Source of the DNA: Clostridiales bacterium CCNA10
GTDB lineage: Bacteria > Bacillota > Clostridia > Oscillospirales > Oscillospiraceae
DNA length: 64,000 nt
Assembly (NCBI GenBank): GCA_003573975.1
Contig: AP018533.1
Span: 124,001-188,000, forward strand
Reading direction: 5' to 3'
In this document: in pieces, positions 3,005 to 35,063 of the stretch
How the letters are laid out: each line of letters opens with the position of its first letter
How positions within the stretch are numbered: position 1 is the first letter of the stretch
Made by a program: the position numbers and the translations under genes
Notes under the pieces: generated by a model
What the model was told of the DNA's origin: nothing
The model's input: the letters and a program-made list of their open reading frames with translations, nothing else
Databases searched by the model: none

Positions 3005-4594
3005 TCAGCGGGCGGAGACATACTTGTGCAGGGTCTTGCGCACCGCACCGGGGCCGGCGAACAACTCGGCGGCCATGGCCTCGATCTTCTCGCCCAGCCC
3101 GGCCTCGTACAGGTCCAGGCCGAATACATCCTTCCGGGTGTAGAGCTGCTTCAGGCAGCTCATGTCCTGGGCGCCCTCCCGGATCTCCAGGGGGGCTACG
3201 ATGGCCTGAAGCTCCTCCAGCAGGGGGTCGGGGGAGGGCTCGAAGGGCTTCCCGGCGTCATTCACGCCCTTGAGGTAGCGGGCGTAGCCGGCCAGAACCA
3301 GGGGGATGAGGACCAGCTCGTCCATGTTCAGGCCCTTGGCCTGATAGGCCTTGATGGTCTCACCGAAGCGGATGGACAGCTTCTGGGAGGTGTCGGTGGC
3401 GATGCGCTGGGGGGCGTCCGGCATGAAGGGGTTGGGCAGACGCTTGTTCAGCACCGCGCCGATAAAGTCGGCGGGCTTGAGCACACCGGGATCCACCACC
3501 ACGGGCATGGCCTCGATGTAGCCCATCTTGGTGATGAGGCCGCACAGATCCTCGTCCTTCATCTCGGCGGAGATGAGGGTGTAGTCCAGCAGGCAGCCAT
3601 AGATGGACATGGCGGTATGCAGGGGGTTCAGGCAGGTGCACACCTTCATCTTCTCCACCTTGTCCACCGTCTCCCGGTCGGCGTACAGCACGCCGCCCTG
3701 CTCCAGAGGAGGCCGTCCATTGGTGTACTGGTCCTCGATGACCAGGTACTCGGTCTCCTCCGCGTTGACGAAGGGGGCGGTATAGGTGTGGCGGTCGGTG
3801 ATGATGGTGTAGTTGTCCTCAAAGCCGTCCTCTTCCAGCATCTTCTGCACCTTGGCGTCGGGCCGGGGGGTGATCTTGTCGATCATGCTCCAGGGGAAGG
3901 AGACCTTGCTCTCATCCTTCAGGTACTCCAGGAAGTCCTGGGGCACCAGGCCGGCCTTCACCCACGTCTCGGCATAGGCCATGGCGGCGCTGCGCACCTT
4001 ATCGCCGTTGTGGGAGCAGTTGTCCATGCTCTGCACCGTGATGGGCAGGGCCCCCGCCTGATAGCGCTCGTACAGCAGGGCGGTGACCTTGCCCATGATG
4101 AGCTGGGGCTCCGCCCCGCGCTCCAGGTCGGCGGGGGAGACGGAATACCCCTTCTCGGTGATGGTGAAGCTCACCATCTGGAGAGAGGGCTTGCGGAAAA
4201 TCTCCACCAGGCGGTCCCAATCAGCGCCGAACTGGGGGTCGGCCTTTAGGCTCTCGGTGACGGAGGCCACCACCCGCTTCTCAATGGAGCCGTCGGACTT
4301 GAGCAGCACCAGCAGGCTCATGTTGTCATAGGGGCGGTAGGCCTTATCGATGATCTCATAGTCAAAGCCCTCGGCCACAATGACGCCCCGGTCATAGGCA
4401 CCCGCGTCCAGCACCCGCTGGAGCAGGGCGGCGGGGAAGGCGCGGAAGATGTTGCCCGCGCCGAAGTGGATCCAGGTGGGTTCGTCGTGGGTCTTCTGGC
4501 GGACGGCCTCCAGGTCGAACTTGGGCAGTTCATAGCCCTTGTCCGCCCAAGCCTGGACGTCGCAGCCCTCAGATCGGATCTCAGAAAGTTTCAT
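3005..4594 (-). CDS. uxuB: D-fructuronate reductase (mannitol dehydrogenase family)
   Basis: A protein of 529 residues, typical for the long-chain mannitol dehydrogenase family. The N-terminal Rossmann half has WIHFGAGNIFRAF. The C-terminal half contains the family Lys-Asn-His region (KVCTCLNPLHTAM). Next to mannonate dehydratase it is best read as fructuronate reductase, which interconverts D-fructuronate and D-mannonate with NAD(H) in the cytoplasm. Mannitol or tagaturonate activity cannot be excluded by sequence. I chose the ATG at 4594, preceded by AGAGGG; an upstream TTG is less likely. It is the last gene of the leftward sugar-acid operon. Confidence 0.85.
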   Translation of the reverse strand: MKLSEIRSEGCDVQAWADKGYELPKFDLEAVRQKTHDEPTWIHFGAGNIFRAFPAALLQRVLDAGAYDRGVIVAEGFDYEIIDKAYRPYDNMSLLVLLKSDGSIEKRVVASVTESLKADPQFGADWDRLVEIFRKPSLQMVSFTITEKGYSVSPADLERGAEPQLIMGKVTALLYERYQAGALPITVQSMDNCSHNGDKVRSAAMAYAETWVKAGLVPQDFLEYLKDESKVSFPWSMIDKITPRPDAKVQKMLEEDGFEDNYTIITDRHTYTAPFVNAEETEYLVIEDQYTNGRPPLEQGGVLYADRETVDKVEKMKVCTCLNPLHTAMSIYGCLLDYTLISAEMKDEDLCGLITKMGYIEAMPVVVDPGVLKPADFIGAVLNKRLPNPFMPDAPQRIATDTSQKLSIRFGETIKAYQAKGLNMDELVLIPLVLAGYARYLKGVNDAGKPFEPSPDPLLEELQAIVAPLEIREGAQDMSCLKQLYTRKDVFGLDLYEAGLGEKIEAMAAELFAGPGAVRKTLHKYVSAR

Positions 4595-20108: not shown

Positions 20109-20510
20109 TCAGCCTGCCTTTCTCCCGGCTCTCAGCGGAGCCAATTCCTTTTTCATGGCGGCGATCAGCTCCGCCAGTTTTTCCTCACATTCTTCTTCGG
20201 TAGCGGCGTAGATATTCCGGGCGATGCGTTTTCCGTTGACCTTGGGGGAATAGCGGCCTTCCCAGAGGTGGTCATTGATTTGGGTGACACACCCGGTTCC
20301 CGGCTTCCGGTATTTCCCCTTGACCGCCTGGAAAGTGGATGAGCCTGGTTTAGATTCGGCGTGCTTTGAGGATGGTTCCGCACCGGCGATCCCCCGGTCG
20401 ATGCAGTCGGCGGCCTTCTGCCGCATCTCATCGGTCACATGGGCGTAGACATTTAGCGTCGTGGCACTGGAGACATGGCCGATGATGGTGGACAGAGTCT
20501 TGATAGGTGT
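20109..20510 (-). pseudogene. C-terminal remnant of a second tyrosine integrase
   Basis: After a TAG at 20513 this frame reads IKTLSTIIGHVSSATTLNV, then YAHVTDEMRQKAADCIDRG and a tail with WEGRYSPKVNGKR. The first part is the His box and catalytic Tyr region of a different integrase lineage, and the tail is that lineage's usual C-terminal extension. No start codon precedes it apart from a GTG inside the HVT motif (20438). It overlaps the 3' end of the intact integrase in another frame. It looks like what is left after recombination between two integrase genes; independent translation as a 109-residue protein is possible but not supported. Confidence 0.65.
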
Positions 20511-21582
20511 CTACTGTGAAGCTGGCCTTAGTATGACCAAGGATTCCGGACAGGGTCTTGGCGTCCACTCCGTTCGCCAGCGCATGGGTGGCAAAGGTAT
20601 GGCGCAGATCGTGAAACCGAAGGTCAGGCAGGCCAGTTTCCTCCAGGATGGCCTTTAAGCGCCGATAGGCACTTCCCGGACTGACTGGCCGCTCTGGGCG
20701 TAGGGGATCCGGAAAGATCCACTGTGTTACCGCAGATCGTTTTCGCTCACGCAGAAGGTTGTCTGTGCTGGATGGGAGCAGGATGGTTCGGGTCCCAGCA
20801 TAGGTTTTGGTGGCCCCCTCCTCCACTCCGCCGCCTTTCTTGGCTCGGATCGTGCGGCATATTTTCAGCGTTCCGGCTGCTTCGTCAAAGTCCTCCCATT
20901 TTAATCCGCACAGTTCACCCCGCCGCAGCCCGGTGGTCAGCTCTGTGAGGAAGAAGTCACACCATATCTCATCCCGCTTGACCGCAGACTTTAGGATTTC
21001 CAACTGTTCATGGTTCAGGATGGTCTTTGCTTTATGCGTTACCTTGGGTGGGGTGACCGAGGCTGCCGGGTCCACCGGCAGCAACCCTTCCTCCACAGCC
21101 GTTTTTAGAGCATGATGTAGCGTGTTATGGACGCCGCGCACCGTGGTCGGACTTAATCCGGTACCATGCTCGCTGCCTTTGTTCCGGTTCCCACGCTCCA
21201 TCAGCGTCTGGTAGAGAGACCGCAGATCTTCCGCCGAAAGTTTCAGCAGAGGTTTTTCGCCAATGTAAGGCTTGACATGGTTATCCAAATCTCTGCGGTA
21301 GACGTCCATAGTGGTGGATCGGATTCTGCCTGCCATATACTCCTCCAGCCAACGGTCCAGCCACTCCGAGAGGGTCATCCTGCACTCCTCCGTCAGATCC
21401 ACACCTTGATAGGCGGTGATATTCTGCCGGAGCTTGGCGGTCAGCTCTTTTTGGGTTTCGGCGTAGAGGTAGCGGAAGATGGGATCGCCGTTTTCCTTGT
21501 GGCCGATGACGATGCGCCCCTCCCAGCGGCCATCCTCCCGCTTGCGGACCATGCCATCACCAGATGGTCTTCGCTTTGCCAT
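20428..21582 (-). CDS. int: Tyrosine recombinase integrase with aberrant C-terminal tail
   Basis: A protein of 384 residues. An N-terminal arm-binding domain, a SAM-like core-binding domain (about 65-165) and a catalytic domain are present. Catalytic residues are Arg in TTGLRRGELCGL, the His-x-x-Arg of FHDLRHTFATHAL, His in ILGHTKAS, and Tyr in FTVDTY. Directly after the Tyr the usual THVT motif is missing; a 19-residue Cys/His-rich tail (QDSVHHHRPCLQCH...) replaces it because the sequence switches to another integrase in a different frame. The active site is complete, but the tail that normally swaps between subunits is lost. It sits next to attL, as expected for the island's own integrase. 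Confidence 0.85.
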   Translation of the reverse strand: MAKRRPSGDGMVRKREDGRWEGRIVIGHKENGDPIFRYLYAETQKELTAKLRQNITAYQGVDLTEECRMTLSEWLDRWLEEYMAGRIRSTTMDVYRRDLDNHVKPYIGEKPLLKLSAEDLRSLYQTLMERGNRNKGSEHGTGLSPTTVRGVHNTLHHALKTAVEEGLLPVDPAASVTPPKVTHKAKTILNHEQLEILKSAVKRDEIWCDFFLTELTTGLRRGELCGLKWEDFDEAAGTLKICRTIRAKKGGGVEEGATKTYAGTRTILLPSSTDNLLRERKRSAVTQWIFPDPLRPERPVSPGSAYRRLKAILEETGLPDLRFHDLRHTFATHALANGVDAKTLSGILGHTKASFTVDTYQDSVHHHRPCLQCHDAKCLRPCDR

Positions 21583-21603
21583 GTTTTTTTCACCTCCGAG
21601 GTT

Positions 21604-21975
21604 TTATCTTTGATTTGCATCGCAGGACTTGCGTGGCCTACCGGATGGGTAGCTGCTTTGTTTCCCTCTCCATTCATCTCTGCGGAGCAGTTCCACCAGA
21701 CTGCCATCGTCCTCGTCCAGCGCTTCCAGAATCAGACGCATTCCCAGACGGAAGCCCAGGATGAAATTCTCCAGAGCCAGCGTGCTGCCGATCTCGTTTT
21801 CCGCGTTGATGAGCCGCAGCAGCAGACTGTGGGCTTCGCCCTCCAGCAGCTTGGTGAGTTGCTCCTCGCACTCCTGAGACTGCTCCATCGCTTTCATCAG
21901 GGACGTGCCGGAACGGATCTGGCGGTCGTATGGCGTGATGTTCCCGTAGTACAGATCTTCCAGTGTTTCTCGCAT
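21604..21975 (-). CDS. DUF6809-type small protein
   Basis: A helical protein of 123 residues beginning MRETLEDLYYGNITPYDRQI, the pattern of the DUF6809 family found in mobile elements of Clostridia. It may regulate element functions, but no activity is known. The C-terminal 25 residues are basic and look disordered. It is 21 bases upstream of the integrase on the same strand. Confidence 0.6.
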   Translation of the reverse strand: MRETLEDLYYGNITPYDRQIRSGTSLMKAMEQSQECEEQLTKLLEGEAHSLLLRLINAENEIGSTLALENFILGFRLGMRLILEALDEDDGSLVELLRRDEWRGKQSSYPSGRPRKSCDANQR

Positions 21976-22489
21976 GATGTGTACCTCCTCTCCTTGTCAG
22001 CAACACACCATACCACAGAAACGGAAAATAGCCACTGGAACCTCGTTTTATTATCAGAACATTCACAATTTTAAACAGTGCTGAAATCGGCTCAAAACGG
22101 GCCAATATCCCCGCGGTGACCCCCGCAGGTGCACCTCCGAACCGCTTGGTTTCAGCGGACTTGCGGGATTTCCTCCTCCATTCCGGCCACCTGTGACGCC
22201 CGAATTGATCCAAACCGACCACCTATGCCCCCCGCCTCCGAAGACCCGCGATCCCTTGTGCCGCCCCGCTTTGCGGGACGGTGTGACCGGCTGAAGGGGC
22301 GCTTGCGACCCCCTGCCTTTATCCTGCACTAAAATCGACCGGCTGCTGCACCCGAACATTTTGGTTTGGGAGAGCCGGACGCTTGGGGCACACAGCCCGC
22401 ACACCGCGCCCTGCATCTTGGACGGGATTGTACCCCACCGGCACCGTCATCGCCGCACACAACTCATCACAGGCTGCACAGCGGCGTGG
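21976..22489. other. Non-coding, GC-rich stretch of the island
   Basis: These 514 bases contain no frame with protein-like composition. They are rich in G and C with several short dyads, and lie between the initiator-like gene and the DUF6809 gene. Position suggests a replication or transfer origin, but I found no nick-site consensus or iterons. Confidence 0.35.
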
Positions 22490-22933
22490 TCACGCGCTCT
22501 GCTCCTTGTCCGATGGAAGGAACTCCACGCCGGACTTCTCCGCTCGCTGCTGCGCTCGCTGTCGAGTTGTTGCTTGTTCTAGCGCGGACAGCTGCCGCTC
22601 GTGATAGAGAGCAATCGCGTTTTGGATCGGCAGGATGGTGTACCGGAGACATCCGTTGCGCCTGAGTCCGTCCCGGGTGATGACGTCGGTGCGCTCCGTG
22701 GTGATGAGACCGTGTTCCTCCAGTAGTCCCACATACTTGGCCACGGTGTTGACTGAGATCCCCAGCTTGTCCGCGATGGTGGGATAGCTGACCACGCACT
22801 GCCAGGTCCGCCGGTCCTCGATCCGCAGCAGGTAGGCGTAGATGGCCAGCTCATACACGTGGAGCCCTAACTCGAACACCGCGTTAGGGAACATGAAGAA
22901 ATATTTCTTCACATCTCGCTTCTGATTTCCCAT
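22490..22933 (-). CDS. Helix-turn-helix protein, possible replication initiator
   Basis: A protein of 147 residues. The first 100 form a winged helix of the kind seen in RepA and DnaD N-termini: YFFMFPNAVFEL, LAIYAYLLR, YPTIADKLGISVNTVAKYVG, LLEEHGLITTERT. The rest is a basic Gln/Arg-rich tail. The ATG at 22933 overlaps the stop of the excisionase gene (TGATG), and GGGAGG lies upstream. In similar islands such proteins start replication of the excised circle or regulate excision; which applies here is not visible. Confidence 0.65.
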   Translation of the reverse strand: MGNQKRDVKKYFFMFPNAVFELGLHVYELAIYAYLLRIEDRRTWQCVVSYPTIADKLGISVNTVAKYVGLLEEHGLITTERTDVITRDGLRRNGCLRYTILPIQNAIALYHERQLSALEQATTRQRAQQRAEKSGVEFLPSDKEQSA

Positions 22934-23145
22934 CAGCCCTGTCCTCCCTTCGTGTGTGCAGAGATCCATCTCCGCAGTTCCTCCTTGGGGACTACGATGC
23001 GCTTGCCGATGCGCAGAGAGGGGAAGTCCTCCTCCTGGACCAGCTCATAGGCGCTGGCATCTGAGATACCAAGAAGATCCGAGAGCTGCTTCATGTTCAG
23101 CATCAGCGGCAGTTCGTCGTAGCTTTTGTAGATCGATTTTTTCAT
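22933..23145 (-). CDS. xis: Excisionase-like MerR/Xis helix-turn-helix protein
   Basis: A protein of 70 residues with the excisionase pattern MKQLSDLLGISDASAYELV then FPSLRIGKRIVVPKEELRRW. Such proteins bend att DNA and steer integrase toward excision. AGGTAACC precedes the ATG. It is coupled to the initiator-like gene. Confidence 0.75.
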   Translation of the reverse strand: MKKSIYKSYDELPLMLNMKQLSDLLGISDASAYELVQEEDFPSLRIGKRIVVPKEELRRWISAHTKGGQG

Positions 23146-23593: not shown

Positions 23594-26500
23594 TTACGCC
23601 GCGGCGTTGGCGTTGATCCGGTCAATCACGCTCTTGATTCCAGCCCACAGGGACAGGTCTGTGAATATCTCTACGATACTTCCCCGATCTGTGAAGGGCG
23701 GTTCCTGAAGCACAGACAGATCCTTCATGACCCCGTTATGGACGATGTACTCCACAATTTGGTTGACGAAGTAGATCTGCCGGCTGTCCAGGTTGACATC
23801 GCTTAAGTACTGGGCAAATGCCTCCTTAGCGGCATTCATATCCATACCCACGATCTCCCGAACAAACTCACCCAGGGGCTTGGCTCCCAGTTCCGCCTCA
23901 TAGTCCTCCCGGGAGCCCACTTCACTCCAGAGGATGGTCTCCAGTTCCTTTACATCTTCCGCCGTCAGTGGCACATTGGAGCGCAGCTTGGCGATAGCGG
24001 GCTTATCCTGGTGCTGGCGCACATAGAACTCCGCCTTGGCCTTGTAGTTCTTCAGATCGTCGTTCTCCAGCTCCGACTCCTTCCACTCTACGGAGAGGAT
24101 ATCATCTGTAAAGTTGGTATTGTAAATGGCGCCATCATGAGGCAGATACTTCATCAGGTTCCGCAAGCACTCCCGGATGTGCTCAAACTCGTTGATTCCG
24201 GCGTTGTCCAGGTAATCAGTATGCAGGATCTTCTCGATGAGTTCCGATTGCGCCCGGATCTCCGGGATGTTTGCCACGCTGGCCACGCCGCTGACCTTCT
24301 TCACCAGATCCTTCCGGGCTTTCTTATAGGTCTTTCCAACCAGGTAGGCAAGTTCAATGCCATACATCAGTGCATCAAACCGCACGGCACTGGCCTCGTC
24401 CATATCCGGTTGGAGGAGTGGGGCAACCTCGTCCCGCAGGTAGAGCGTATCCTCATATCTGAGGGCCTGGTAGCTCGCCGAGTCAGCGAACTTCTCTACA
24501 TACCGCAGGTGCTGCCGCACAGCAAAATTCGCCCGATCCAGTTGCTGCACTTTGGAGAGCATTTCATCTACCAGCTTCTCTCGAAAGGGGATCAGTTCCT
24601 CAGTCTGGTAGGCCAGATCCTGGAGCTTGTAGACAATTTGAGCTTTCAGATAGAAGATGGCACTTTGCAGGGCCATCTGGTTGGCAGTGGCCTTGCCTTT
24701 GTTCATGCGGAAAAACTCGAAGTTGCCGCATAGATCGAAGATGTAGAACTTGCTTTTGTTCTCCCCGTCCACCAGTCCCGTACACAGACGGGTACCCCGA
24801 CCGATCATCTGCCAGAATTTTGCACGGCTCTGTACCTTCTTGAAGAACACCAGGTTCAGCACCTCGGGTACATCAATGCCGGTATCCAGCATATCCACGG
24901 AGATGGCAATCTGGGGCAGCTTTTTCGGGTCGGAGAATTCGTCGATGGCACTCTGGGCGTAGGTCATGTAGTTGTCGATGACCTTGGCGTAACCAGGCAG
25001 ATGGGGGTACTCCTTGCCGAACACCTCCAGAATTTTCTCAGCGTGGCGGTGATTCTTGGCAAAGATGATGGTCTTGCCCAGCTTCTCTCCGTAGTCAATT
25101 TTCAGGCCGTTGGTCATCAGCAGATTCAGAGCCAGGCGGATGGTATCCTCGTTGAACAGCCACTCGTTGAGGGCAGAGGACTCGATCCGCTCGGGCAACT
25201 CCCCATTCTCATCGGTGAAGGTGGCCTCATACTCCGCCTGTTCCTCCTCGGACAGATCGGCGTAGGAGATGCCCTCCTCCATGAATTTCAGCTTGCTCTC
25301 CACCGTGAGGAAGTCCACCAGAAAGCCGTCCTTCACCGCCTGGGCCAGTTCGTAGCCGTAGGTAGGCACACCGCTCTCCAGTTCAAAGATCTCGTAAGTG
25401 TTCTTGTCGATCTCATCCTTTGGGGTGGCTGTGAGACCCACCAGGGGTGCGTCAAAGTAGTTGAAAATATCCCGATACTTATTGTAGATGGAGCGGTGGG
25501 CCTCGTCGCAGATGACCAAATCGAAGTGGCCTACAGTGAACAGCTTTCCCTCTCCGTCCTCAACCGAGTCGATGCAGTTCATCATGGTCTGGTAGGTAGA
25601 AAAGACGCAGTGGGCCGTGTAATTGTCCTTCTCCTCGCACAGGTTGGTCACGGAGAGATTGGGCAGCAGATTCACAAAGCTGCGCTTGGCCTGGGTGACC
25701 AGAGAGTTTCGGTCGGCCAGGAAGAGGACATTTTTCACCCAACCGTGCTGGAGGAGTACATCCACCAGAGCGATGACCGTGCGGGTCTTGCCCGAGCCGG
25801 TGGCCATGACCAGCAGGGCCTTCCGGCGGTTCTGGGCCAAAGCCTGACAGGTGGCCTTGATGGCCCCCTCCTGGTAGTAGCGGCCGGCAATGTTGTGGTC
25901 CACCTGGATGTACTTGAGGCTTGTCCGCATGGCCCGAAGGTTGAAGAACTTCTCCAGGTCCCTCTTGGAGTAGAAGGCGGCCACCCGCCGCTCCGGGTAG
26001 GCTCCGTCGTCGATCCGGGTGTCAAAGCCGTTGGTGAGGAAGATCACCGGGCGGCGGCCATATTTCTGCTCCAGCAGGTCGGCGTACAGCTTGGCCTGCT
26101 GGCGGCCCTTGGCTGGGTCCACACAGGTGCGCTTGGCCTCGATGACGGCCAGGGGGCGGTGGGCGTCATCATAGAGCACATAGTCGGCATAGCCCACCTC
26201 GCTCTGGTTGGGCATACCGGGCAGCTCCACCTCGTTCAGCCAGTCCTTCCCTTCCGTCCAGCCCGCGTCGGTGAGCATGGCGTCAATGTATAGCTTGCGG
26301 GTCTTGTACTCGGACAGGTCCAGGGGCTTGGGGGTGTAACTGGGCTGCTGAGTCTCACGGCGGGCGGTGAGTTCTGCCCTCAGGGCCTCGTTCTCCGCCA
26401 TGAGGGCGGCCAGATCCACCTCGGGCGCGGGAGCGGGAGCCGGAGCGGCGGTCTGCTGCTCCAGCAGGGCTGGGTCAAATTCTCCGGCCGTGTAAGTCGT

Positions 26501-26878
26501 GCCATAACAACAGGCAATAAAGTCCATGAAGTACCAGAGGTTTTCCAGACATAACTGGGCCTGCTCCTTGGTGATCTTCTTTCCGGTGTGGGCGGCGGCG
26601 TTGCCCGTCTGGCGGATGTACTTGAGGCGCTGCCAAAGGTCCCGGTCCACGATGGCCCGGAAGTCCTCAGTGTCCATGAGGCTGGCCAGCCGGTCATCGT
26701 AGGGCATGACCAACCCACCGTCCACGGAGTACATCCATTTGACGGCAAACTCCATACACCGGCGGCAGTTGAGCACGCAGGCTGCCGGGTCGATAGTATA
26801 GATTCTTTCCGCCGCAACGGCAACCTCTCCGAATGTGGTGAGCTGGGGGTCAGAGAGGAGAAAATTAAAGTTGGTCAT
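23594..26878 (-). CDS. hsdR: Type I restriction enzyme, motor and nuclease subunit HsdR
   Basis: A protein of 1,094 residues. It starts with a DUF4145 domain (about 1-130; RQTGNAAAH, itself HEPN-like). The nuclease domain follows with the PD-(D/E)xK core AVIEAKRT near residue 242. The SF2 helicase motor has Walker A MATGSGKTRT near 357, DEAH near 455, GLTATPK near 478 and QMIGRGTRL near 690. The EcoEI-type C-terminal domain ends the protein. With HsdM and HsdS it translocates and cuts unmethylated DNA. GAGGTGATACC precedes the ATG, 9 bases after the HEPN-motif gene. All motifs look intact. Confidence 0.93.
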   Translation of the reverse strand: MTNFNFLLSDPQLTTFGEVAVAAERIYTIDPAACVLNCRRCMEFAVKWMYSVDGGLVMPYDDRLASLMDTEDFRAIVDRDLWQRLKYIRQTGNAAAHTGKKITKEQAQLCLENLWYFMDFIACCYGTTYTAGEFDPALLEQQTAAPAPAPAPEVDLAALMAENEALRAELTARRETQQPSYTPKPLDLSEYKTRKLYIDAMLTDAGWTEGKDWLNEVELPGMPNQSEVGYADYVLYDDAHRPLAVIEAKRTCVDPAKGRQQAKLYADLLEQKYGRRPVIFLTNGFDTRIDDGAYPERRVAAFYSKRDLEKFFNLRAMRTSLKYIQVDHNIAGRYYQEGAIKATCQALAQNRRKALLVMATGSGKTRTVIALVDVLLQHGWVKNVLFLADRNSLVTQAKRSFVNLLPNLSVTNLCEEKDNYTAHCVFSTYQTMMNCIDSVEDGEGKLFTVGHFDLVICDEAHRSIYNKYRDIFNYFDAPLVGLTATPKDEIDKNTYEIFELESGVPTYGYELAQAVKDGFLVDFLTVESKLKFMEEGISYADLSEEEQAEYEATFTDENGELPERIESSALNEWLFNEDTIRLALNLLMTNGLKIDYGEKLGKTIIFAKNHRHAEKILEVFGKEYPHLPGYAKVIDNYMTYAQSAIDEFSDPKKLPQIAISVDMLDTGIDVPEVLNLVFFKKVQSRAKFWQMIGRGTRLCTGLVDGENKSKFYIFDLCGNFEFFRMNKGKATANQMALQSAIFYLKAQIVYKLQDLAYQTEELIPFREKLVDEMLSKVQQLDRANFAVRQHLRYVEKFADSASYQALRYEDTLYLRDEVAPLLQPDMDEASAVRFDALMYGIELAYLVGKTYKKARKDLVKKVSGVASVANIPEIRAQSELIEKILHTDYLDNAGINEFEHIRECLRNLMKYLPHDGAIYNTNFTDDILSVEWKESELENDDLKNYKAKAEFYVRQHQDKPAIAKLRSNVPLTAEDVKELETILWSEVGSREDYEAELGAKPLGEFVREIVGMDMNAAKEAFAQYLSDVNLDSRQIYFVNQIVEYIVHNGVMKDLSVLQEPPFTDRGSIVEIFTDLSLWAGIKSVIDRINANAAA

Positions 26879-26887
26879 GGTATCACC

Positions 26888-28327
26888 TCAATTCTTTTTC
26901 TTCTCTTTTTCCTTTGCTGCTTTATCCGAAATCTCTACGAGCAGTGTTTGCAATTCCATAATTCCATCGAGCGAATCTTGCACTGTGTCTTTGTTAACAA
27001 TACTATTCTCACCGTGAGCCGTGCTGTTTCTAAGCTGGTCAGCTCTTATTTTTAAAAGAAGACGGCGCATTTTTTTAGCATCTTCTTTTGTGATACATTT
27101 CTTTTTATAGAAGAAATCAATGTTAGCAAAAATCGATGGAGGCATCCCGTCATAAGGCTTTTTTGCTGTTTGACTTGAAAAATATTCGCAAGTATCGCAT
27201 TTTGACAATTTTTTGTTCCTGAAGATGCTGTATTCCTCTCTGATAGAATTGTTTTTTGCAATTTCATCAAACCAATGATAAATCATTCCTTCAGCGCAAG
27301 AACACAATAGCGAAAAAGATTCCAAATAGAACCCTGCTGAGAACAAATTTGTAGCATGGTGGTATGTTGTAACAAATGACTTGTTTTTATATGTTCCAAT
27401 TATGTGCCTATTCAGCTCAACCATCTCAGTATCTGTAAATTGATGCCAGAGTGCGTTTCCACCTACCCAGTCAGATGTAAAATCTGTGGCTGTTATAGTC
27501 CCACCTAACACGGTTTCCTTTTCGTCCCATCGATACTGAAACATAGATGCTGTGCTTACTTGGTTAATGCTGTACGGCATAACCATTTTCCCAGGCGAGG
27601 CCTTGACTGCCAGGAGCAGCATCATGTTTGTGATTTCCAAGGATTTTCTGATAGGCGGACTCTTCTCTCGAGTTTCCCATTTGGGCCCTCTCCACCAGGT
27701 ATCCGGCTTTATCAACCCGTATGCCTTGAATTTAAAACTTGTATAGTTATCTTTTTCACGCGGAACCTTTTTCACTTCGAGAGAAATATACGGGTAACAG
27801 GGGGTTAAATCAAACATATAGTCTTTTACAACTGGTTCAAATGGATATAGATATTCAACGGTATAAATCGGTAACTTCCCAACTTTGTAGTCTTCATATA
27901 AATTTCTTAATTCAGTTTGTCGTTTGGAGTATAATGTACTGCACTCTTGGAGCAAGTTATCTTGGAAGGAAATTACTTTCTCGATCTTTTCAGGAATGTC
28001 ATATTTGATTCCGAGATTTTCTGACTCATTATTGTATAGGCAGTACAGCAGAGATTCCAAAGCAAAATCCAGAATGATAATAAGGCTCTGTTTATTTCGA
28101 CTTACATGCTTTAGAGGCAGAATTTGATTGTATTTCTCCAATATATCGAGGTAGTTGCAATAGTAGCCGCATTGTTGACACGCGGCAAGCAAATGGTAAA
28201 GTAAATCTAAATTTTTTCTATTCTTTTGGGAATCATGGGATGGATATATTTTATATCCCTGCTCTAAGTATTGATCAACTAAGTCAAAAAAGCGCCCACG
28301 AGAAAACAATTCTTGCATGCTTTCCAT
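26888..28327 (-). CDS. HEPN-motif protein inserted in the R-M operon, function unknown
   Basis: A protein of 479 residues. The N-terminal 130 residues are helical and repeat-like (LYHLLAACQQCGYYCNYLDIL). A middle region of about 250 residues has no recognised family. A C-terminal helical domain has a CDTCEYF knuckle and R433-N-S-T-A-H438, the R-N-x3-H signature of HEPN ribonucleases. The gene is AT-rich, unlike the GC-rich hsd genes on both sides, so it was acquired separately. It sits 9 bases before hsdR and 85 bases after a broken hsdR 5' copy. GGGGGAG precedes the ATG at 28327. An RNase-type back-up defence is a reasonable guess; no homologue is recognised. Confidence 0.7.
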   Translation of the reverse strand: MESMQELFSRGRFFDLVDQYLEQGYKIYPSHDSQKNRKNLDLLYHLLAACQQCGYYCNYLDILEKYNQILPLKHVSRNKQSLIIILDFALESLLYCLYNNESENLGIKYDIPEKIEKVISFQDNLLQECSTLYSKRQTELRNLYEDYKVGKLPIYTVEYLYPFEPVVKDYMFDLTPCYPYISLEVKKVPREKDNYTSFKFKAYGLIKPDTWWRGPKWETREKSPPIRKSLEITNMMLLLAVKASPGKMVMPYSINQVSTASMFQYRWDEKETVLGGTITATDFTSDWVGGNALWHQFTDTEMVELNRHIIGTYKNKSFVTTYHHATNLFSAGFYLESFSLLCSCAEGMIYHWFDEIAKNNSIREEYSIFRNKKLSKCDTCEYFSSQTAKKPYDGMPPSIFANIDFFYKKKCITKEDAKKMRRLLLKIRADQLRNSTAHGENSIVNKDTVQDSLDGIMELQTLLVEISDKAAKEKEKKKN

Positions 28328-28412
28328 TTTTTCATTTCTCCCCCAATATTGCAACCAAATGTGTTGATGCGGTATACAACGAACTCTTGCTCTGGATTTT
28401 ACCACCTGGCCT

Positions 28413-28595
28413 TCAGCAGGGTACAGCCAACTTGCCGTCCACGAAGTATATCCATTTGACAGCAAACTCCACACAGCGGCAGCAGTTCAGCACGCAGGCC
28501 ACCGGGTCGATGTCATAGATTTTTTCCGCTGAGACGGCCATCTCCCTGAAAGTGGTGAATTGGGGATCAGAGAGGAGAAAATCGAAGTTGGTCAT
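28413..28595 (-). pseudogene. Truncated duplicate of the hsdR 5' end
   Basis: Sixty codons whose product (MTNFDFLLSDPQFTTF...) aligns with the first 60 residues of the intact HsdR at roughly 75-80% identity, then stops at TGA. The ribosome site and the 9-base gap to the upstream gene also match those of the intact copy. The DNA differs at many positions, so it is a diverged allele rather than a recent tandem copy. Confidence 0.85.
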
Positions 28596-28604
28596 GGTGA
28601 CACC

Positions 28605-29390
28605 TCATTGTCTTAAAACATTTCCATCGACTTCACTATCATCTACTTCTTTGATTTCTATGGAATTATCACGAAGCTCTCTAATATGCCCAATGTGGAA
28701 CCAACTCAAAGGCTTTATTGACGCGACAAAGTGATGGTCATTTTCTCCTATCAATGGAGCACCATTCGATACAAGAATGATTCTCCACTCATTTTGCCAC
28801 TGATAGGACAAATCTTTTTTAAAAAACACATTATATTGATTTCTATTTTCATCGTTCAGAATTTCAATATGATATTCTGAGTGTATATCAACATAAGAAA
28901 CTGCCCCCCATTTTCCTCCAAGTTGATTGTCATCTATGTAATCAAGCATATTTTGCAGAAATTCAACTTTACTAAAAATGGCATAATAAGAGCCAAATTG
29001 CTCCATTTCAGATATAAACTCTTCTTTAAATTTTAAAGAAAATTCGGTTTCTTTCCGAAGAATATGTTCAGATAGTTGAGAGCAGCAATAAAGTGGGATC
29101 TTATTATCACCTTTAAATCCGACCGTAAAATTCTGTATGAAGTCAAGAGGTATCTTTATTCGCTCTTCTGGTGATTCCTCTGGACCTAATTCCATGAATT
29201 CACCTGTATGATTTTCAAAAGAGATGACACATTTTCCGTCAAATTTGTCGCCTCGGTAAGTATCTTCAAGTTTTCTAAAATATCCACTTTCGTTCATGTA
29301 AACTTTTCCGGCGCACAAATCTTCAAGATATTTGCGATTGTTACTGACCTTTATTAACATGTCCGGAAATTCATATTGGAATACTTTCAT
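28605..29390 (-). CDS. Unknown cargo gene, DUF2971-like pattern
   Basis: An acidic protein of 261 residues with an AT-rich gene. Visible features are KVYMNESGYFRKLED..RGDKFDG near the start and YQWQNEWRIIL near residue 215. The spacing recalls DUF2971 proteins (an early F/Y-x-R region and a late W-x-x-E-W-R), but the match is weak. No signal peptide or membrane segment is seen. It lies 9 bases after hsdS and 9 before the broken hsdR copy, so it is co-transcribed with the R-M genes. An accessory defence role is inferred from location only. Confidence 0.55.
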   Translation of the reverse strand: MKVFQYEFPDMLIKVSNNRKYLEDLCAGKVYMNESGYFRKLEDTYRGDKFDGKCVISFENHTGEFMELGPEESPEERIKIPLDFIQNFTVGFKGDNKIPLYCCSQLSEHILRKETEFSLKFKEEFISEMEQFGSYYAIFSKVEFLQNMLDYIDDNQLGGKWGAVSYVDIHSEYHIEILNDENRNQYNVFFKKDLSYQWQNEWRIILVSNGAPLIGENDHHFVASIKPLSWFHIGHIRELRDNSIEIKEVDDSEVDGNVLRQ

Positions 29391-29399
29391 GGCATAATC

Positions 29400-30494
29400 T
29401 CACCCAAAATATTGCTGCATCAAGGCTTTTTTCAATACTTCCAGTTTATCAAGGCTCTGCTGAATCGTCAATTTTGATTTGTTCGCCTGTTCCACAAGAA
29501 ATGAAAATTGTTTCTGTAACCCCAAAGGTGGCAGAATGATTGTAAATGCCTTTATGTCGCCAACATTGATATGTGGCGACGCTGATCCACTGACACCACC
29601 CAGTGCTTTTCGCAAAAAGGATTCAAAATTCATAGCAACACTCAAAAACTGTGGTAAGCATTTTGTAGTATCTGGGGATAGTAACATTGACCTCTGTCCA
29701 AGTGCTACATTGCAATCTCGGTCTATCATTGCCGCAATACCAAGGATAGCTCCTTCTCTTGTATATACAATATCACCCTTTTCGGGGCGTTTGCGCTGGA
29801 TTCGCTGATAATATTCACGTTCGGGTATGTACTCGATATCATCCCACATAATACGATTCTTCTTAACAATTGATGTTCTGATACACATATATCCAGTATT
29901 ATCACTTGTATAGTTCGGAGTTGAATGAGGACAATCTACTATAGTTTTGCACACACTATCCAGCGGCCACATCTGCCATTTGTGGTCATTCTCTACCGGG
30001 TCCCCAAACATCTCCACAAACCGGGCTTTGACCAGCAGGTCCAGTTTGTTCAGCTGCACCCGGCGCTTGGCGATCAGGTCGCTGACCTTGTCCAGCTGGA
30101 CGGCAATGAGGCGCTGTTCTTCCAATGGTGGGAGAGGAAGTTCCTCCTTTTGATAGTCTTTAAAGTATATGTGTGGAATCGTTGCGCCGGTATAGTATTT
30201 TGCAAGGTTCATATTTTCCATGGCATAGGCCAAGTAGCCAATATCTACATTTTTGCCCGGAATAATATATTGCATAGTTCCAATGACAGAGGACTTTGCG
30301 GGTAATTTCATAACGCGACCAACACCCGCGCCATCTTTTACAACTGCAATATATGGGCTTTCTTGCTGATAAAAATCAACCGCTTTGATGAGACCACTCG
30401 CACCATAAATCGGATACTCACCATGCCGTCCATCTAAATCTTTCTGCGCAATATTTGAAGTCGCTTTGCTGCAAACATCCCCCAATTTCGCCAT
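29400..30494 (-). CDS. hsdS: Type I restriction-modification specificity subunit HsdS
   Basis: A protein of 364 residues with two target-recognition domains. TRD1 (about 1-120) is followed by a conserved helical spacer (LPPLEEQRLIAVQLD...ARFVEMFGDP, about 122-170). TRD2 (about 175-320) is followed by the second spacer (LPPLGLQKQF...LEVLKKALMQQYFG). The two half-sites it reads cannot be deduced. The second TRD is clearly AT-richer than the spacer DNA, a sign of domain exchange. The ATG at 30494 overlaps the hsdM stop (TGATG). Confidence 0.92.
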   Translation of the reverse strand: MAKLGDVCSKATSNIAQKDLDGRHGEYPIYGASGLIKAVDFYQQESPYIAVVKDGAGVGRVMKLPAKSSVIGTMQYIIPGKNVDIGYLAYAMENMNLAKYYTGATIPHIYFKDYQKEELPLPPLEEQRLIAVQLDKVSDLIAKRRVQLNKLDLLVKARFVEMFGDPVENDHKWQMWPLDSVCKTIVDCPHSTPNYTSDNTGYMCIRTSIVKKNRIMWDDIEYIPEREYYQRIQRKRPEKGDIVYTREGAILGIAAMIDRDCNVALGQRSMLLSPDTTKCLPQFLSVAMNFESFLRKALGGVSGSASPHINVGDIKAFTIILPPLGLQKQFSFLVEQANKSKLTIQQSLDKLEVLKKALMQQYFG

Positions 30495-31990
30495 CACACC
30501 ATCTCCTCCAGCTCCGCCAGGCCCTTGGTGATCTCCAGCTCCAGCTCCTTGAGGTCCGTCAGAATCTCCTGGGTGGATGGGTACTCCACGGGGACATACT
30601 CCATCTTCTTGTACTTGTTGATGGAGAGGTCATAGCCGTTCTGGGCGATCTCCTCCCTGGGCACCAGGAAGGACTGCTCGGTGCGCTCCCGCGCCTTTTC
30701 CCCCTCACGGTTGTGGAATCGGGCCACGATGTCGGGGATGTTGCTTTCCTTGATCTCCACACGCTTGTCGTCCAGGGTGAAGCCATCGGCCTTCATGTCG
30801 TAAAACCACACCTCATCCGTGCCGCCGTGGCCTGTCTTGGTGAACACCAGCACCGCCGTGGACACCCCGGCGTAGGGCTTGAACACCCCAGGGGGCATAG
30901 AGATCACCGCCTCCAGCCGGTTGCCCTCCACGATCTCCTTGCGGATGTCCTTATGAGCCTTGGAGGAACCGAACAGCACCCCGTCGGGTACGATGACGGC
31001 GCACCGCCCGCCTACCTTCAGCATCCGCAGGAAGAGGGCCAGGAACAACAGCTCGGTCTTCTTGGTCTTGCAAACCTTCAGCAGGTCGGCGGACACGATG
31101 TCCGCGTCCAGGCTCCCCTTGAAGGGGGGATTGGCCAGAATGAGGGTGTACTTCTCCCGGTCGGTGTTCTGGTCGCTGAGGCTGTCCCGATACTCAATGT
31201 AGGGGTTGTCGATGCCGTGGGTCATCATGTTCATGGCCCCGATGCGCAGCATAGTGCGGTCCATATCGTAGCCGTTGAACATATGGTTCATATAATGGTC
31301 TTTCTTCTGACGGTCGAAGAAGATTTCTTCTTTCCTGTTCTCCTTCAAATACTCGCCGGCCGCCACCAGGAAGCCGCCGGTGCCGCAGGCCGGGTCGCAA
31401 ATCACATCGTCCGCCCGAGGGGCCATCAGGTCCACCATCATGCGGATGATGTGCCGGGGGGTGCGGAACTGGCCGTTGACCCCGGCGGTGGCGATTTTGG
31501 ACAGGAGGTATTCGTAGATGTCGCCCCGGACATCAGTATCGTGGAGCTGCTCCGCCTGGGCGTAAATTTCGTCCATGGCGGTGACGATCTTATCCAGCAT
31601 CAGAGGCGTGGGGATCTTGAAAATGGCGTCTCCCATGTACTTGGCGTAGGCGCTGTCCTTGTCGGCGTGGAGGTTCTTGATGAAGGGGAACACCCACTCC
31701 TGCATGACGGAATACATCTGTCCGGCGGGAAAGTCGTGGAACACCGACCATTTGAGCTGGCTACCCGGGATGGTCCGCTCCCCCACCTGTACCTCACCGG
31801 CAAAGATGCTCTTATGAGGCAGGCCCAGCATGGCACTCTCCTTGGCCCGCTGGTTATCGGCGGCATCCAGGTCGTGGATGAACATGAGGTAGGTCATCTG
31901 TTCCACCACATCCAGGGGATTCGTTATGCCGCCGGTCCAGAAGGTCTCCCAGAGGCGGTCAATTTTATTTTTCAGTTCGCCAGTGATCAT
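30494..31990 (-). CDS. hsdM: Type I DNA adenine methyltransferase subunit HsdM
   Basis: A protein of 498 residues. The N-terminal helical domain (ELKNKIDRLWETFW...YLMFIHDLD) precedes the catalytic domain with SAM motif I DPACGTGGF near residue 198 and catalytic motif IV NPPF near 287, the order of N6-adenine methylases. It modifies the host's own sites and is needed with HsdS and HsdR for cutting. Its start is six bases after the fic stop. Confidence 0.95.
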   Translation of the reverse strand: MITGELKNKIDRLWETFWTGGITNPLDVVEQMTYLMFIHDLDAADNQRAKESAMLGLPHKSIFAGEVQVGERTIPGSQLKWSVFHDFPAGQMYSVMQEWVFPFIKNLHADKDSAYAKYMGDAIFKIPTPLMLDKIVTAMDEIYAQAEQLHDTDVRGDIYEYLLSKIATAGVNGQFRTPRHIIRMMVDLMAPRADDVICDPACGTGGFLVAAGEYLKENRKEEIFFDRQKKDHYMNHMFNGYDMDRTMLRIGAMNMMTHGIDNPYIEYRDSLSDQNTDREKYTLILANPPFKGSLDADIVSADLLKVCKTKKTELLFLALFLRMLKVGGRCAVIVPDGVLFGSSKAHKDIRKEIVEGNRLEAVISMPPGVFKPYAGVSTAVLVFTKTGHGGTDEVWFYDMKADGFTLDDKRVEIKESNIPDIVARFHNREGEKARERTEQSFLVPREEIAQNGYDLSINKYKKMEYVPVEYPSTQEILTDLKELELEITKGLAELEEMV

Positions 31991-31996
31991 GTTCTC

Positions 31997-33055
31997 TTAC
32001 TCCTTTTCCCGGTTCCAGATATAGGCGGTATAGCGTCCGCCGCTGAGTTTTAGAATTTCCCCGCTCTTCTGCAGGTCGGCCAAAGTGCGCTGTATCGTGA
32101 TTTTACTAATATCGGGGCACTGCTGGATGATCTCCGCCTTGGTAACCTTCCCAAGGGTGCCCTTGATGATCTCCCGGATACGGTCCGGCTTGCTCATGCC
32201 ACTGACGGCCAGGACTTGCACACGGGCGGAAAAGTTCCGGTAGGCCGCCGCTACCACGCCCAAGGTATAGCGCACAAAAGGGGCGTAGTCATTGGCTTCC
32301 TCGTGCCACCTGTGGGAGCTCTGCTGGAGAACCTCATAGTAGGTTTCCTTGCTCTCCTCAATGAGTTTTTCAATACTGATATATTTGCCCACGATATAGC
32401 CTGCCCGGTAGAGCAGCAGCAGGGTCAGCAGGCGGCTCATACGGCCGTTACCGTCGTTAAAGGGATGAATACAGAGAAAGTCCAGAATGAACATAGGGAT
32501 CAGCAGCAACGGATCCATGTCACCCTTCCCCACAGCCTCCTCGTAGGCCCGGCAGAGGCTGTCCACCGCCTCCGGCGTCTCCCAGGCCGGGAGAGGTTGA
32601 AAGCGAATCGTTTTGTTTCCTTGTTCGTCCTCCTCTGTAATCACATTGTCCAAGGTTTTATAATGTCCACCGTAGGACGCGCCGCTAAATTTATAGAGGT
32701 CCCGGTGGAGCTGCAGGATCATAGATGCTTTTGGCGGGATATAGTCAAAGCTCTCATGAATGGTGGCCAGTACATCCCGGTAACCGGCGATCTCCTGCTC
32801 GTTCCGGGTATGGGGGGTAGTTTTGTCCTGCACCAGCTTTTTCAGGCGCTCGTTCGAAGTATAAATACCCTCGATTTTGTTGGAGGCCTCGGTGCTTTGG
32901 ATCTTGGCGATTTCCACCAGTTTAGTCAGGGTATCGGCTTTGGCCTCGATAAACAGGGCCTGTTCTCCTTTGTATTCATGGATCTGAGTCAGCAGGGCCA
33001 CGATATCTGGGGCAAGCAGCTTCTCATAGTTTTTGGCAAAATCGTAGGTGCGCAT
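31997..33055 (-). CDS. fic: Fic-domain protein with C-terminal winged helix
   Basis: A protein of 352 residues. The Fic core contains HPFNDGNGRMSR near residue 196, a complete AMP-transfer motif. An N-terminal helix carries SNKIEG (about 62-67), the inhibitory (S/T)xxxE(G/N) motif that clamps the active site, so this is a self-inhibited class II Fic. The last 80 residues form a winged helix (KVTKAEIIQQ...TIQRTLADLQKSGEILKL) that may bind DNA. It is the first gene of the R-M operon and may autoregulate it through repeated sites at the promoter. The ATG at 33055 has GAGGT 5 bases upstream. Confidence 0.9.
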   Translation of the reverse strand: MRTYDFAKNYEKLLAPDIVALLTQIHEYKGEQALFIEAKADTLTKLVEIAKIQSTEASNKIEGIYTSNERLKKLVQDKTTPHTRNEQEIAGYRDVLATIHESFDYIPPKASMILQLHRDLYKFSGASYGGHYKTLDNVITEEDEQGNKTIRFQPLPAWETPEAVDSLCRAYEEAVGKGDMDPLLLIPMFILDFLCIHPFNDGNGRMSRLLTLLLLYRAGYIVGKYISIEKLIEESKETYYEVLQQSSHRWHEEANDYAPFVRYTLGVVAAAYRNFSARVQVLAVSGMSKPDRIREIIKGTLGKVTKAEIIQQCPDISKITIQRTLADLQKSGEILKLSGGRYTAYIWNREKE

Positions 33056-33097
33056 CCTGTACCTCACTTCAGGTCAATTTTATCGTTTTTCTTATAA

Positions 33098-33893: not shown

Positions 33894-34752
33894 TTAGTAG
33901 GAGAGGCGTCGCGCAAGCGGCGCCTCTCCAGTCTTTAACTGGATGCGCTCATGGTTATAAAAATGAATATAGCGGTCGATCATTTCGTTGGCTTCCGGGA
34001 AGGTAGCCGGTTTGTGGCGGTAAATGCACTCCGTTTTGAGGATGGAGAAGAAATTTTCCGCCATGGCGTTGTCATATGGATTTCCCTTTCTTGACATGGA
34101 CGGTGTAATGCCGTATGCTTGAGTCAGGTTGAAGTATGCTCGCGAGGTGTACTGAAATCCCTGGTCGCTGTGGAGGTGGAGTTCTGCAGCGACCTTCTTT
34201 TTCTCTCGCTTCATTGCCAGACGAATGGTGTCCAGAACCAGACCCACCGTCTGTTCCGTTCCGGTTTTGTAAGCCACAATACTGTTGTCGTAGAGATCCC
34301 GGATCATGGATAGGTACAGTACGCCCTGCTTGGTGTGGATGTAGGAGATGTCCGTTACCCATTTTCTGTTTGGCCCATCTGCGTGAAATCCTCTGTTCAG
34401 CAGATTCTCATACCTGTGGACCTGCTGCCCCATCTGCTGCCATTTCCTGCGGCGGCGGATCTCTGACAGCAGATCATATTTTTTCATGATTCGCAGCACA
34501 GTTTTAGGATTACAGAAAATGTTCTGGCTTTTCAGCCATAGCCACATCCGCCGGTAGCCATAGGTACGGAAGCTGCGTTCCCGCTGCTGTGCGATAACTT
34601 TTGCAAGAGCGGCATCCTTCTCCGGCCTGTCCAGACGGTGGACAAACGCATAGTAGCCGCTTCTGGATACTGCAAAAAACGTGCACATGACGGATATTGG
34701 ATATTCCTCTCTGTGACGATAGTATGATGTGGTATTTTACCCTTGCCCTCAC
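33894..34752 (-). pseudogene. IS3-family transposase orfB, frameshifted near its start
   Basis: The catalytic protein with an rve integrase fold: DDE residues lie in WVTDISYI, LHLHSDQGFQYTS and NPYDNAMAENFFS. A GTG at 34752 overlaps the orfA stop and begins VRARVKYHII. After that the frame must shift by one to continue YRHREEYPISVMCTFF. An extra C on the minus strand at about 34722 causes this, and no start codon restores the early part. The later frame is open to its end. Either the copy is dead or the base is a sequencing error; the element's usual orfA-orfB fusion would be blocked. Confidence 0.8.
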
Positions 34753-35063
34753 TTCCTTCCTGTGGACCGCAGAAAATCCCGCAGCAATTTGTTCTCCATC
34801 TGCAAGCGATGGATCTCATACGCCTGCTCTGCCACAATGTTTCTTGGTGCGGCATCTTTCCTCGGTCGTCCTTTGGGCCGTGGAAGGATTCCGGCTTCCA
34901 GCTTGCGTTCTTTTCTCCGCTCACGCTCAAGCAGCCTTTTTACCACCTGCTTATCCCGAAAGCCGTAGTGTTCTGCAACTTCCCGCTGGGTTTTCCCCTC
35001 TGCCAGCATGGCTTTGATCTCAGGCAACAGCGCTTGAATGTGTGTGTAGTTCCGTTTCTCCAT
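34749..35063 (-). CDS. IS3-family transposase orfA
   Basis: A protein of 104 residues. The N-terminal helix-turn-helix (AEGKTQREVAEHYGFRDKQVV) recognises the ends. A basic region and a C-terminal leucine-zipper-like helix (EQAYEIHRLQMENKLLRDFL) follow, which is typical OrfA. Its ribosome site GGGGGG lies in one arm of the hairpin at 35067-35109. Confidence 0.88.
   Translation of the reverse strand: MEKRNYTHIQALLPEIKAMLAEGKTQREVAEHYGFRDKQVVKRLLERERRKERKLEAGILPRPKGRPRKDAAPRNIVAEQAYEIHRLQMENKLLRDFLRSTGRK

Follow-up and report, generated by a model that had tools for sequence, protein, structure and literature searches.

A HEPN-motif gene and an hsdR stump in the cargo slot between hsdS and hsdR of a clostridial type I restriction operon

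Our survey supports the reading of the hsdS-hsdR junction as a cargo slot of type I restriction operons, and the broken hsdR starts lying in some of these slots, often joined to the broken end of an hsdS gene, point to exchange between hsd operons, which we regard as probable. The window, i.e., the 64,000-nucleotide stretch of contig AP018533.1 from Clostridiales bacterium CCNA10 analysed here, carries such a slot with a gene for a HEPN-like protein, and acquisition of this gene by an exchange of slot contents between operons is the best explanation overall, one towards which we lean with some reserve.

Results

The operon of the window lies on the minus strand in the order hsdM, hsdS, a gene for 261 amino acids, an hsdR stump, a gene for 479 amino acids and the intact hsdR. 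The type I methyltransferase gene hsdM (30494..31990; PADLOC MTase_I, E 8e-182; Pfam N6_Mtase, E 6e-67) precedes the gene for the specificity subunit, hsdS (29400..30497; Pfam Methylase_S, E 7e-24; PADLOC Specificity_I, E 6e-52), which is the left border of the slot; the right border is the intact hsdR for 1094 amino acids (23594..26878; PADLOC REase_I, E 5e-160; Pfam ResIII, EcoEI_R_C and DUF4145). The DUF4145 domain that opens this hsdR (Pfam E 1.1e-13) was absent from the first-pass annotation, as was the 261-aa gene between hsdS and the stump (28605..29390). The product of this first slot gene matched no family in Pfam, PADLOC and NCBIfam, and its two distant relatives in the 400 host-family genomes are 30% and 27% identical. 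In none of these genomes did the 261-aa gene turn up immediately ahead of hsdR, thus the window is left without a pre-insertion relative. The second slot gene (26888..28327) was correctly described as an AT-rich RNSTAH gene directly before hsdR, with R433 and H438 in the motif. Both slot genes are A+T-rich (34.0% G+C for the 261-aa gene and 37.7% for the 479-aa gene) compared with hsdR (57.0%) and hsdM (59.0%), the window as a whole having 54.3%.

On the strand of the operon, hsdR is closely followed (20428-23145) by genes for a tyrosine integrase (20428-21582), a DUF6809 protein, an HTH protein and an AlpA-like excisionase-type HTH protein (22933-23145); given these integrase and excisionase-type genes, the operon may reside on an integrative element. 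In the other direction, hsdM is closely preceded, on its own strand, by a Fic/DOC family gene (PADLOC SoFic-like, 31997-33067). Upstream of this gene, 33894-35063 encodes a small HTH protein and a transposase that has an rve integrase core, a pair that we take to resemble an IS3-type element.

The stump in the slot (28427..28595, minus strand) extends from the start codon to +169. Its beginning, read from 28595, is GAGGTGTCACCATG, and the intact hsdR begins with GAGGTGATACCATG; the ribosome site and its spacing are identical in the two. Local DNA alignment gave 157 identical columns out of 189, reaching from 19 bp ahead of the ATG as far as +169, which bears out the earlier description of a truncated hsdR 5' end with the same ribosome site and spacing. 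The stump protein is 74.6% identical to HsdR over 59 codons, with an E-value of 5e-23 in a tblastn search limited to the fetched loci and of 4e-27 in a search of the bacterium's own genome, therefore the likeness is not due to chance. Past the homology, the stump frame continues into unrelated sequence. The joint between the stump and the second slot gene (28328..28426) is without a significant hsdS 3' remnant, the best score being reached by 15 of 200 and 69 of 100 shuffles. Ranked by closeness to the stump among 54 hsdR starts, the intact hsdR of its own operon comes second. We consider it somewhat likely that the stretch 28427..28595 is the remnant of a former resident hsdR start.

Loci were collected with the first 320 residues of HsdR as the query. 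A match at E <= 1e-40 was found in 38 of 400 host-family genomes, and 38 loci were fetched from 37 of them, G144 being omitted with a match that begins at the contig edge. With the threshold set at E <= 1e-20, 24 of 245 genomes in the order matched; 18 of these belong to other families, and 15 of the 18 loci were fetched and three, whose match had no N-terminal part, were omitted. Together with L002, the survey comprised 54 distinct loci. The end of hsdS was identified in 46 of them, and more than 150 bp separate it from hsdR in 41 (less in the other five), so that the junction proposed as a cargo slot from the window alone holds cargo in most of these 46. L105 was counted as filled, though a second, partial hsdS precedes its hsdR, and L041, where the hsdS end was not identified, stands outside the 41 filled slots. 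Variable genes and, beside the cargo, hsdR 5' fragments occurred in other operons too, as the first-pass annotation had expected of its survey; its reading was to fall if the predicted structure lacked a HEPN fold and cargo were confined to this one operon, a combination that we did not find, cargo being present in other operons as well. Variable content and remnants of both border genes, which mark slot exchange, are both on record, the hsdS remnant in slots other than that of the window. Five regions on comparison plasmids from outside the phylum were varied: two from Acinetobacter have hsdR no more than about 30 bp behind hsdS, one has a DUF2569 gene of opposite strand between the two genes, another has transposases and a helicase gene there, and hsdR stands first on the plasmid of Escherichia coli.

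The slots of the host-family loci and L002 contain 65 ORFs, 50 of which were scanned together; the L002 copy of the 479-aa gene, the G210 pieces, the stump ORFs and otherwise mostly short ORFs were excluded. Among the 25 of 27 Pfam families listed for the 50 proteins are DUF559 and DUF2971 (four each), AbiH and DUF4062 (three each), AAA_21 (two), TIR (one) and a Swt1-type HEPN (one), and the 25 of 185 PADLOC matches listed include HEC-01A, HEC-01B, PtuA, AriA, AbiLi and candidate families. The slot contents thus range over AbiH, TIR, Septu-like, HEC-01-like and many unknown proteins, and cargo families recur beside distant hsdR lineages, e.g., AbiH in L048, L066 and L075. HEC-01A and HEC-01B are matched by two slot proteins each, with best E-values of 5e-167 and 1e-80, indicating that the slot draws on the pool of the HEC candidates; the HEPN-motif protein, unlike these, matches neither. 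No recombinase family was detected in 30 slot proteins scanned singly or among the 25 of 27 families listed for the 50 scanned jointly. In the slots of L045, L067, L072 and L075, proteins of the DUF559 family (Vsr/restriction-like) lie beside short repeated sequences and are perhaps a separate mobile unit.

A search of the slots with 12 full-length HsdR proteins identified seven hsdR 5' pieces in six of the 54 loci, i.e., L041, L057 (the window), L062 (two), L067, L071 and L074. All stumps start with codon 1 or 2 of hsdR, and none extends past codon 73 (codon 79 in L067 when its own hsdR is the query). At the DNA level the homology ends at +54, +71, +86, +115, +128, +169 and +211, and with seven differing ends the seam is not a fixed site. 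Probes of 300 bp from hsdR 1-300 matched in five of the 41 filled slots and those from hsdS 3' ends in four, and the probes from hsdM 5', hsdS 5', hsdR 601-900 and hsdR 901-1200 matched in none of the 41. Probes from hsdM 3' and hsdR 301-600 matched in L067 alone, coming from L072 and L068 and falling in short repeated places, which we have taken for a dispersed repeat. With the HsdM of the window as the query, no hsdM piece was found in the slots. Stumps were absent from all 15 loci that represent other families of the order, and the counts exclude a doubtful, degenerate piece of hsdR in L065 (E 1e-5).

In L062 (twice) and L067, an hsdS 3' end, readable to the hsdS C-terminus, lies directly behind the stump and before the next cargo gene, and a shorter remnant of about 27 bp is in the same place in L074. 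An hsdR start is therefore paired with an hsdS end at four of the seven seams. For each of these remnants, and for that of L101, the score was reached by none of 200 shuffles. In L071 a remnant was not supported (155 of 200 and 17 of 100 shuffles reached the score), and L041 gave no match. The nearest of the 54 hsdR starts is the intact hsdR of the same operon for five of the seven stumps; for the L041 stump it ranks 12. Among the open-licence papers listed by our searches, none describes paired hsdR/hsdS stumps in its title or in the opening of its abstract.

Several slots have features of their own. L062 (G004:C5:84000-90900) has two consecutive hsdR::hsdS seams between three cargo blocks, and two of its cargo proteins have sub-threshold HEPN matches. 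L101 (G440:C6) has its hsdS 3' remnant at 3160-3285 (oriented) in a slot without a preceding hsdR stump. The repeat in L071 (3844-3977 and 5456-5589, oriented) includes 48 bp before the hsdR start, and the genes before the stump and before the intact hsdR share their end codons (IRAMESE), which fits duplication of the target more readily than a donor from elsewhere.

In one pair of species, the slot holds a single cargo in one member and a second cargo besides in the other. Genome G022 (L079) has the order hsdS-DUF2971-hsdR with one cargo, and contig 57 of G182 (L080) is collinear with it from the hsdS end, through a 78% identical DUF2971 protein, to hsdR codon 42. In L080 a stretch of 722 bp comes next, in which two ORFs resemble portions of a DUF4062 protein, and it is followed by a complete hsdR, thus the first 126 bp of the G022 hsdR match twice in G182.

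The 479-aa gene begins at the ATG at 28327 and ends at 26888; a longer ORF of 528 aa begins within the stump. Its full-length relative, with 63% identity, lies in L002 from an uncultured Firmicutes, in the order hsdM-hsdS-gene-hsdR, with 6 bp from the hsdS stop to the gene start and no stump. A further relative in G210 comprises only about the last 142 codons (44% identical) directly before hsdR, on a contig beginning about 700 bp upstream, too near to show hsdS. All three copies found stand before hsdR, and the position between hsdS and hsdR on the same strand is seen in more than one genome, i.e., the window and L002. At E <= 0.01, five of 250 host-family genomes matched, namely the window, G210 and three weak matches (G245, G169, G008) that were not upheld on inspection; profile searches of the order (245 genomes) and the phylum (398 genomes) matched the window alone. 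Searches of phages, plasmids and viral contigs, the last of which finds close relatives only, gave no match to the HEPN-motif protein. Over 476 codons the identity to the full-length homologue is 72.5, 80.7 and 43.7% at the three codon positions, a bias of the divergence to the third position that is typical of a conserved protein.

The RNSTAH motif (residues 433-438, 27031-27014) is the sole Rx4-6H in the protein; it aligns with RNKTVH and RNKTTH of the two relatives, so that it is conserved in all three homologues, and it is unique within each. It belongs to a C-terminal HEPN-like domain (residues 316-469, 26921..27382). When this domain alone was compared with Pfam RiboL-PSP-HEPN (PF18735), it scored 22.2 bits (E 1.5e-4) against a cut-off of 28.4, and no curated HEPN profile exceeded its cut-off, either with the whole protein (Pfam) or with the domain alone. 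Residues 316-469 of the alignment-based model retrieved HEPN structures; the mean pLDDT is 50 and 55 for the two models, in which the stretch around the motif is of poor quality, and the model built from the single sequence retrieved helical bundles of other kinds. As far as these low-confidence models allow, the fold agrees with HEPN, and the HEPN identity of the predicted domain is supported by the motif in three out of three homologues, the sub-threshold Pfam match and the structure matches. With PF18735 and the HEPN structures 2hsb and 1wol the protein shares the Rx4-6H motif and a predicted helical C-terminal domain; it differs from them in scoring below the Pfam cut-off, in about 315 extra N-terminal and middle residues and in conserved C377-x2-C380 and C411 before the motif. 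These three cysteines are invariant in the three copies and perhaps form a metal site within the HEPN-like domain. That the slot gene does not encode a HEPN RNase, with motif and helices arising by chance or the domain serving another role, we hold to be rather unlikely: the protein exceeds no family cut-off in Pfam, PADLOC and NCBIfam, model confidence is low, Foldseek returned nothing at E <= 0.001 for the predicted models and the sequence search of solved structures a single row (E 0.36), but an invariant motif that is unique in each protein, the E-value of the Pfam match and the HEPN structures retrieved by the aligned model speak against it. Kinship with the DUF4145 domain of hsdR was also considered and rejected, the profile comparison not being significant (probability 0.5%, E 0.12).

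Discussion

The insertion by recombination at the hsdR 5' end that had been proposed for the window stands insofar as stumps recur, but hsdR alone as the target does not, because the hsdS 3' remnants behind four of seven stumps speak for exchange between hsd operons rather than insertion aimed at hsdR. A donor slot with its borders would recombine with a resident operon that already holds cargo, and the donor DNA would run from the hsdS 3' end, or from just before the cargo, through the cargo into hsdR. The right-hand join would be homologous and lie within hsdR, leaving it whole; the left-hand join would be ragged, by a one-sided illegitimate event, and on the donor side would fall in the hsdS end or inside a cargo gene, as the G210 copy suggests. 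Where it fell slightly inside the resident hsdR, the old cargo would be kept and a short hsdR 5' stump left at the seam, often with a short hsdS 3' stump behind it; joins further left would replace the old cargo without a scar, which would explain most slots without a stump. One homologous side and one ragged side define homology-facilitated illegitimate recombination, which our seams resemble in this respect, the end products alone being what is seen here. That five of seven stumps are nearest to their own hsdR suggests close relatives as exchange partners, or else duplication inside a single genome. The right-hand join should make hsdR itself a mosaic, of which sliding identities give only a hint.

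Against exchange stand the stumps themselves, which with codon 73 of about 1,095 as their limit end far nearer to the slot than random joins predict; our guesses are a later trimming deletion or harm by longer HsdR fragments. The joints of the window, L071 and L041 without a significant hsdS remnant and the 15 loci of other families without an hsdR stump also count against it. A deletion in tandem hsd operons, from the first hsdR into the second hsdS, would leave hsdS-cargo1-hsdR'::hsdS'-cargo2-hsdR, precisely the kind of paired seam found in L062, L067 and L074, and stumps close to their own hsdR fit copies within one lineage. We consider it unlikely, as no slot has the hsdM piece or longer hsdR piece expected of an intermediate, the G210 copy, cut inside the cargo gene, is not predicted, and tandem operons were not seen in the fetched stretches, which reach about 5.5 kb upstream of hsdR.

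It is quite improbable, in our estimate, that "hsdS end - cargo - hsdR start" is itself a cassette in an array of defence genes, integron-like but without an integrase, built on the gene ends of the operon and perhaps passing through a circular intermediate closed at the hsdR::hsdS seam, in which the stumps would serve as homology handles and which could be stacked (as the two seams of L062), lost or exchanged between hsd operons. A free cassette is not favoured, since outside hsd loci a search of 35 of the 38 host-family genomes with hsdR yielded a single 35% match to an hsdR start; this search found four of the seven known stumps and missed three. Site-specific elements at the hsdR start could bring a replacement 5' end, like integrative elements at gene ends, and every stump indeed begins at the hsdR start and an integrase gene (20428-21582) is near the operon; the seven different homology ends from +54 to +211, the hsdS remnants at four of seven seams and slot proteins without a recombinase among the 25 of 27 families listed in the joint scan make this very improbable. 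We give just as little credit to a stump kept for function, such as production of a short peptide from the HsdR N-terminus or a signal for translating the next gene: although the window copy retains the ribosome site and 60 open codons, the L067 stump is partly out of frame, homology in L041 ends at codon 18, lengths vary and 48 of 54 loci have no stump.

The cargo families and the place of the slot suggest defence for its genes. The acquired protein, with a helical N-terminal part, a middle part and the C-terminal HEPN-like domain, would cut RNA on sensing infection or the failure of restriction and thereby stop phage growth in the manner of PrrC, which acts from a similar position; judging from motif and place, we give RNA cutting and phage arrest an even chance, and the 479-aa gene as an RNase and a second line of defence is thus only plausible. 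PrrC has an ATPase part; in the window protein, by contrast, sequence profiles gave no NTPase family at E <= 1 for the whole protein or at E <= 10 for the parts scanned. The PrrC anticodon nuclease, embedded in EcoprrI, is described as a model for sensing the failure of restriction (PMC12707154), and an RNase-type effector within a type I operon is what we suspect in the window. DarTG2 in EPEC and an ATPase pair are embedded between hsdS and hsdR, a site already named there a potential recombination hotspot (PMC12255303), and TgvAB lies in a type I operon of Vibrio cholerae; in Campylobacter jejuni, RloF is flanked by hsdR and hsdS (PMC11411939). Like that of the window, where the defence role is putative, these operons hold unrelated defence genes; the portions of the accounts of DarTG2, TgvAB and RloF consulted mention no hsdR or hsdS remnants (PMC12255303, PMC11411939), and the window gene is of another family.

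It is already known that defence genes gather inside restriction operons and that embedded genes occur at the hsdS-hsdR site. The stumps add a readable record of the route of the cargo and point to cargo that travels as part of a slot between hsd operons. They also suggest a direction, with the old resident start on the left and the working hsdR on the right. The hsdR start joined to an hsdS end provides a sequence signature by which such events can be counted in genome collections, and the slot is a source of uncharacterised genes, among them the HEPN-motif gene that stands above the cut-off of no curated family.
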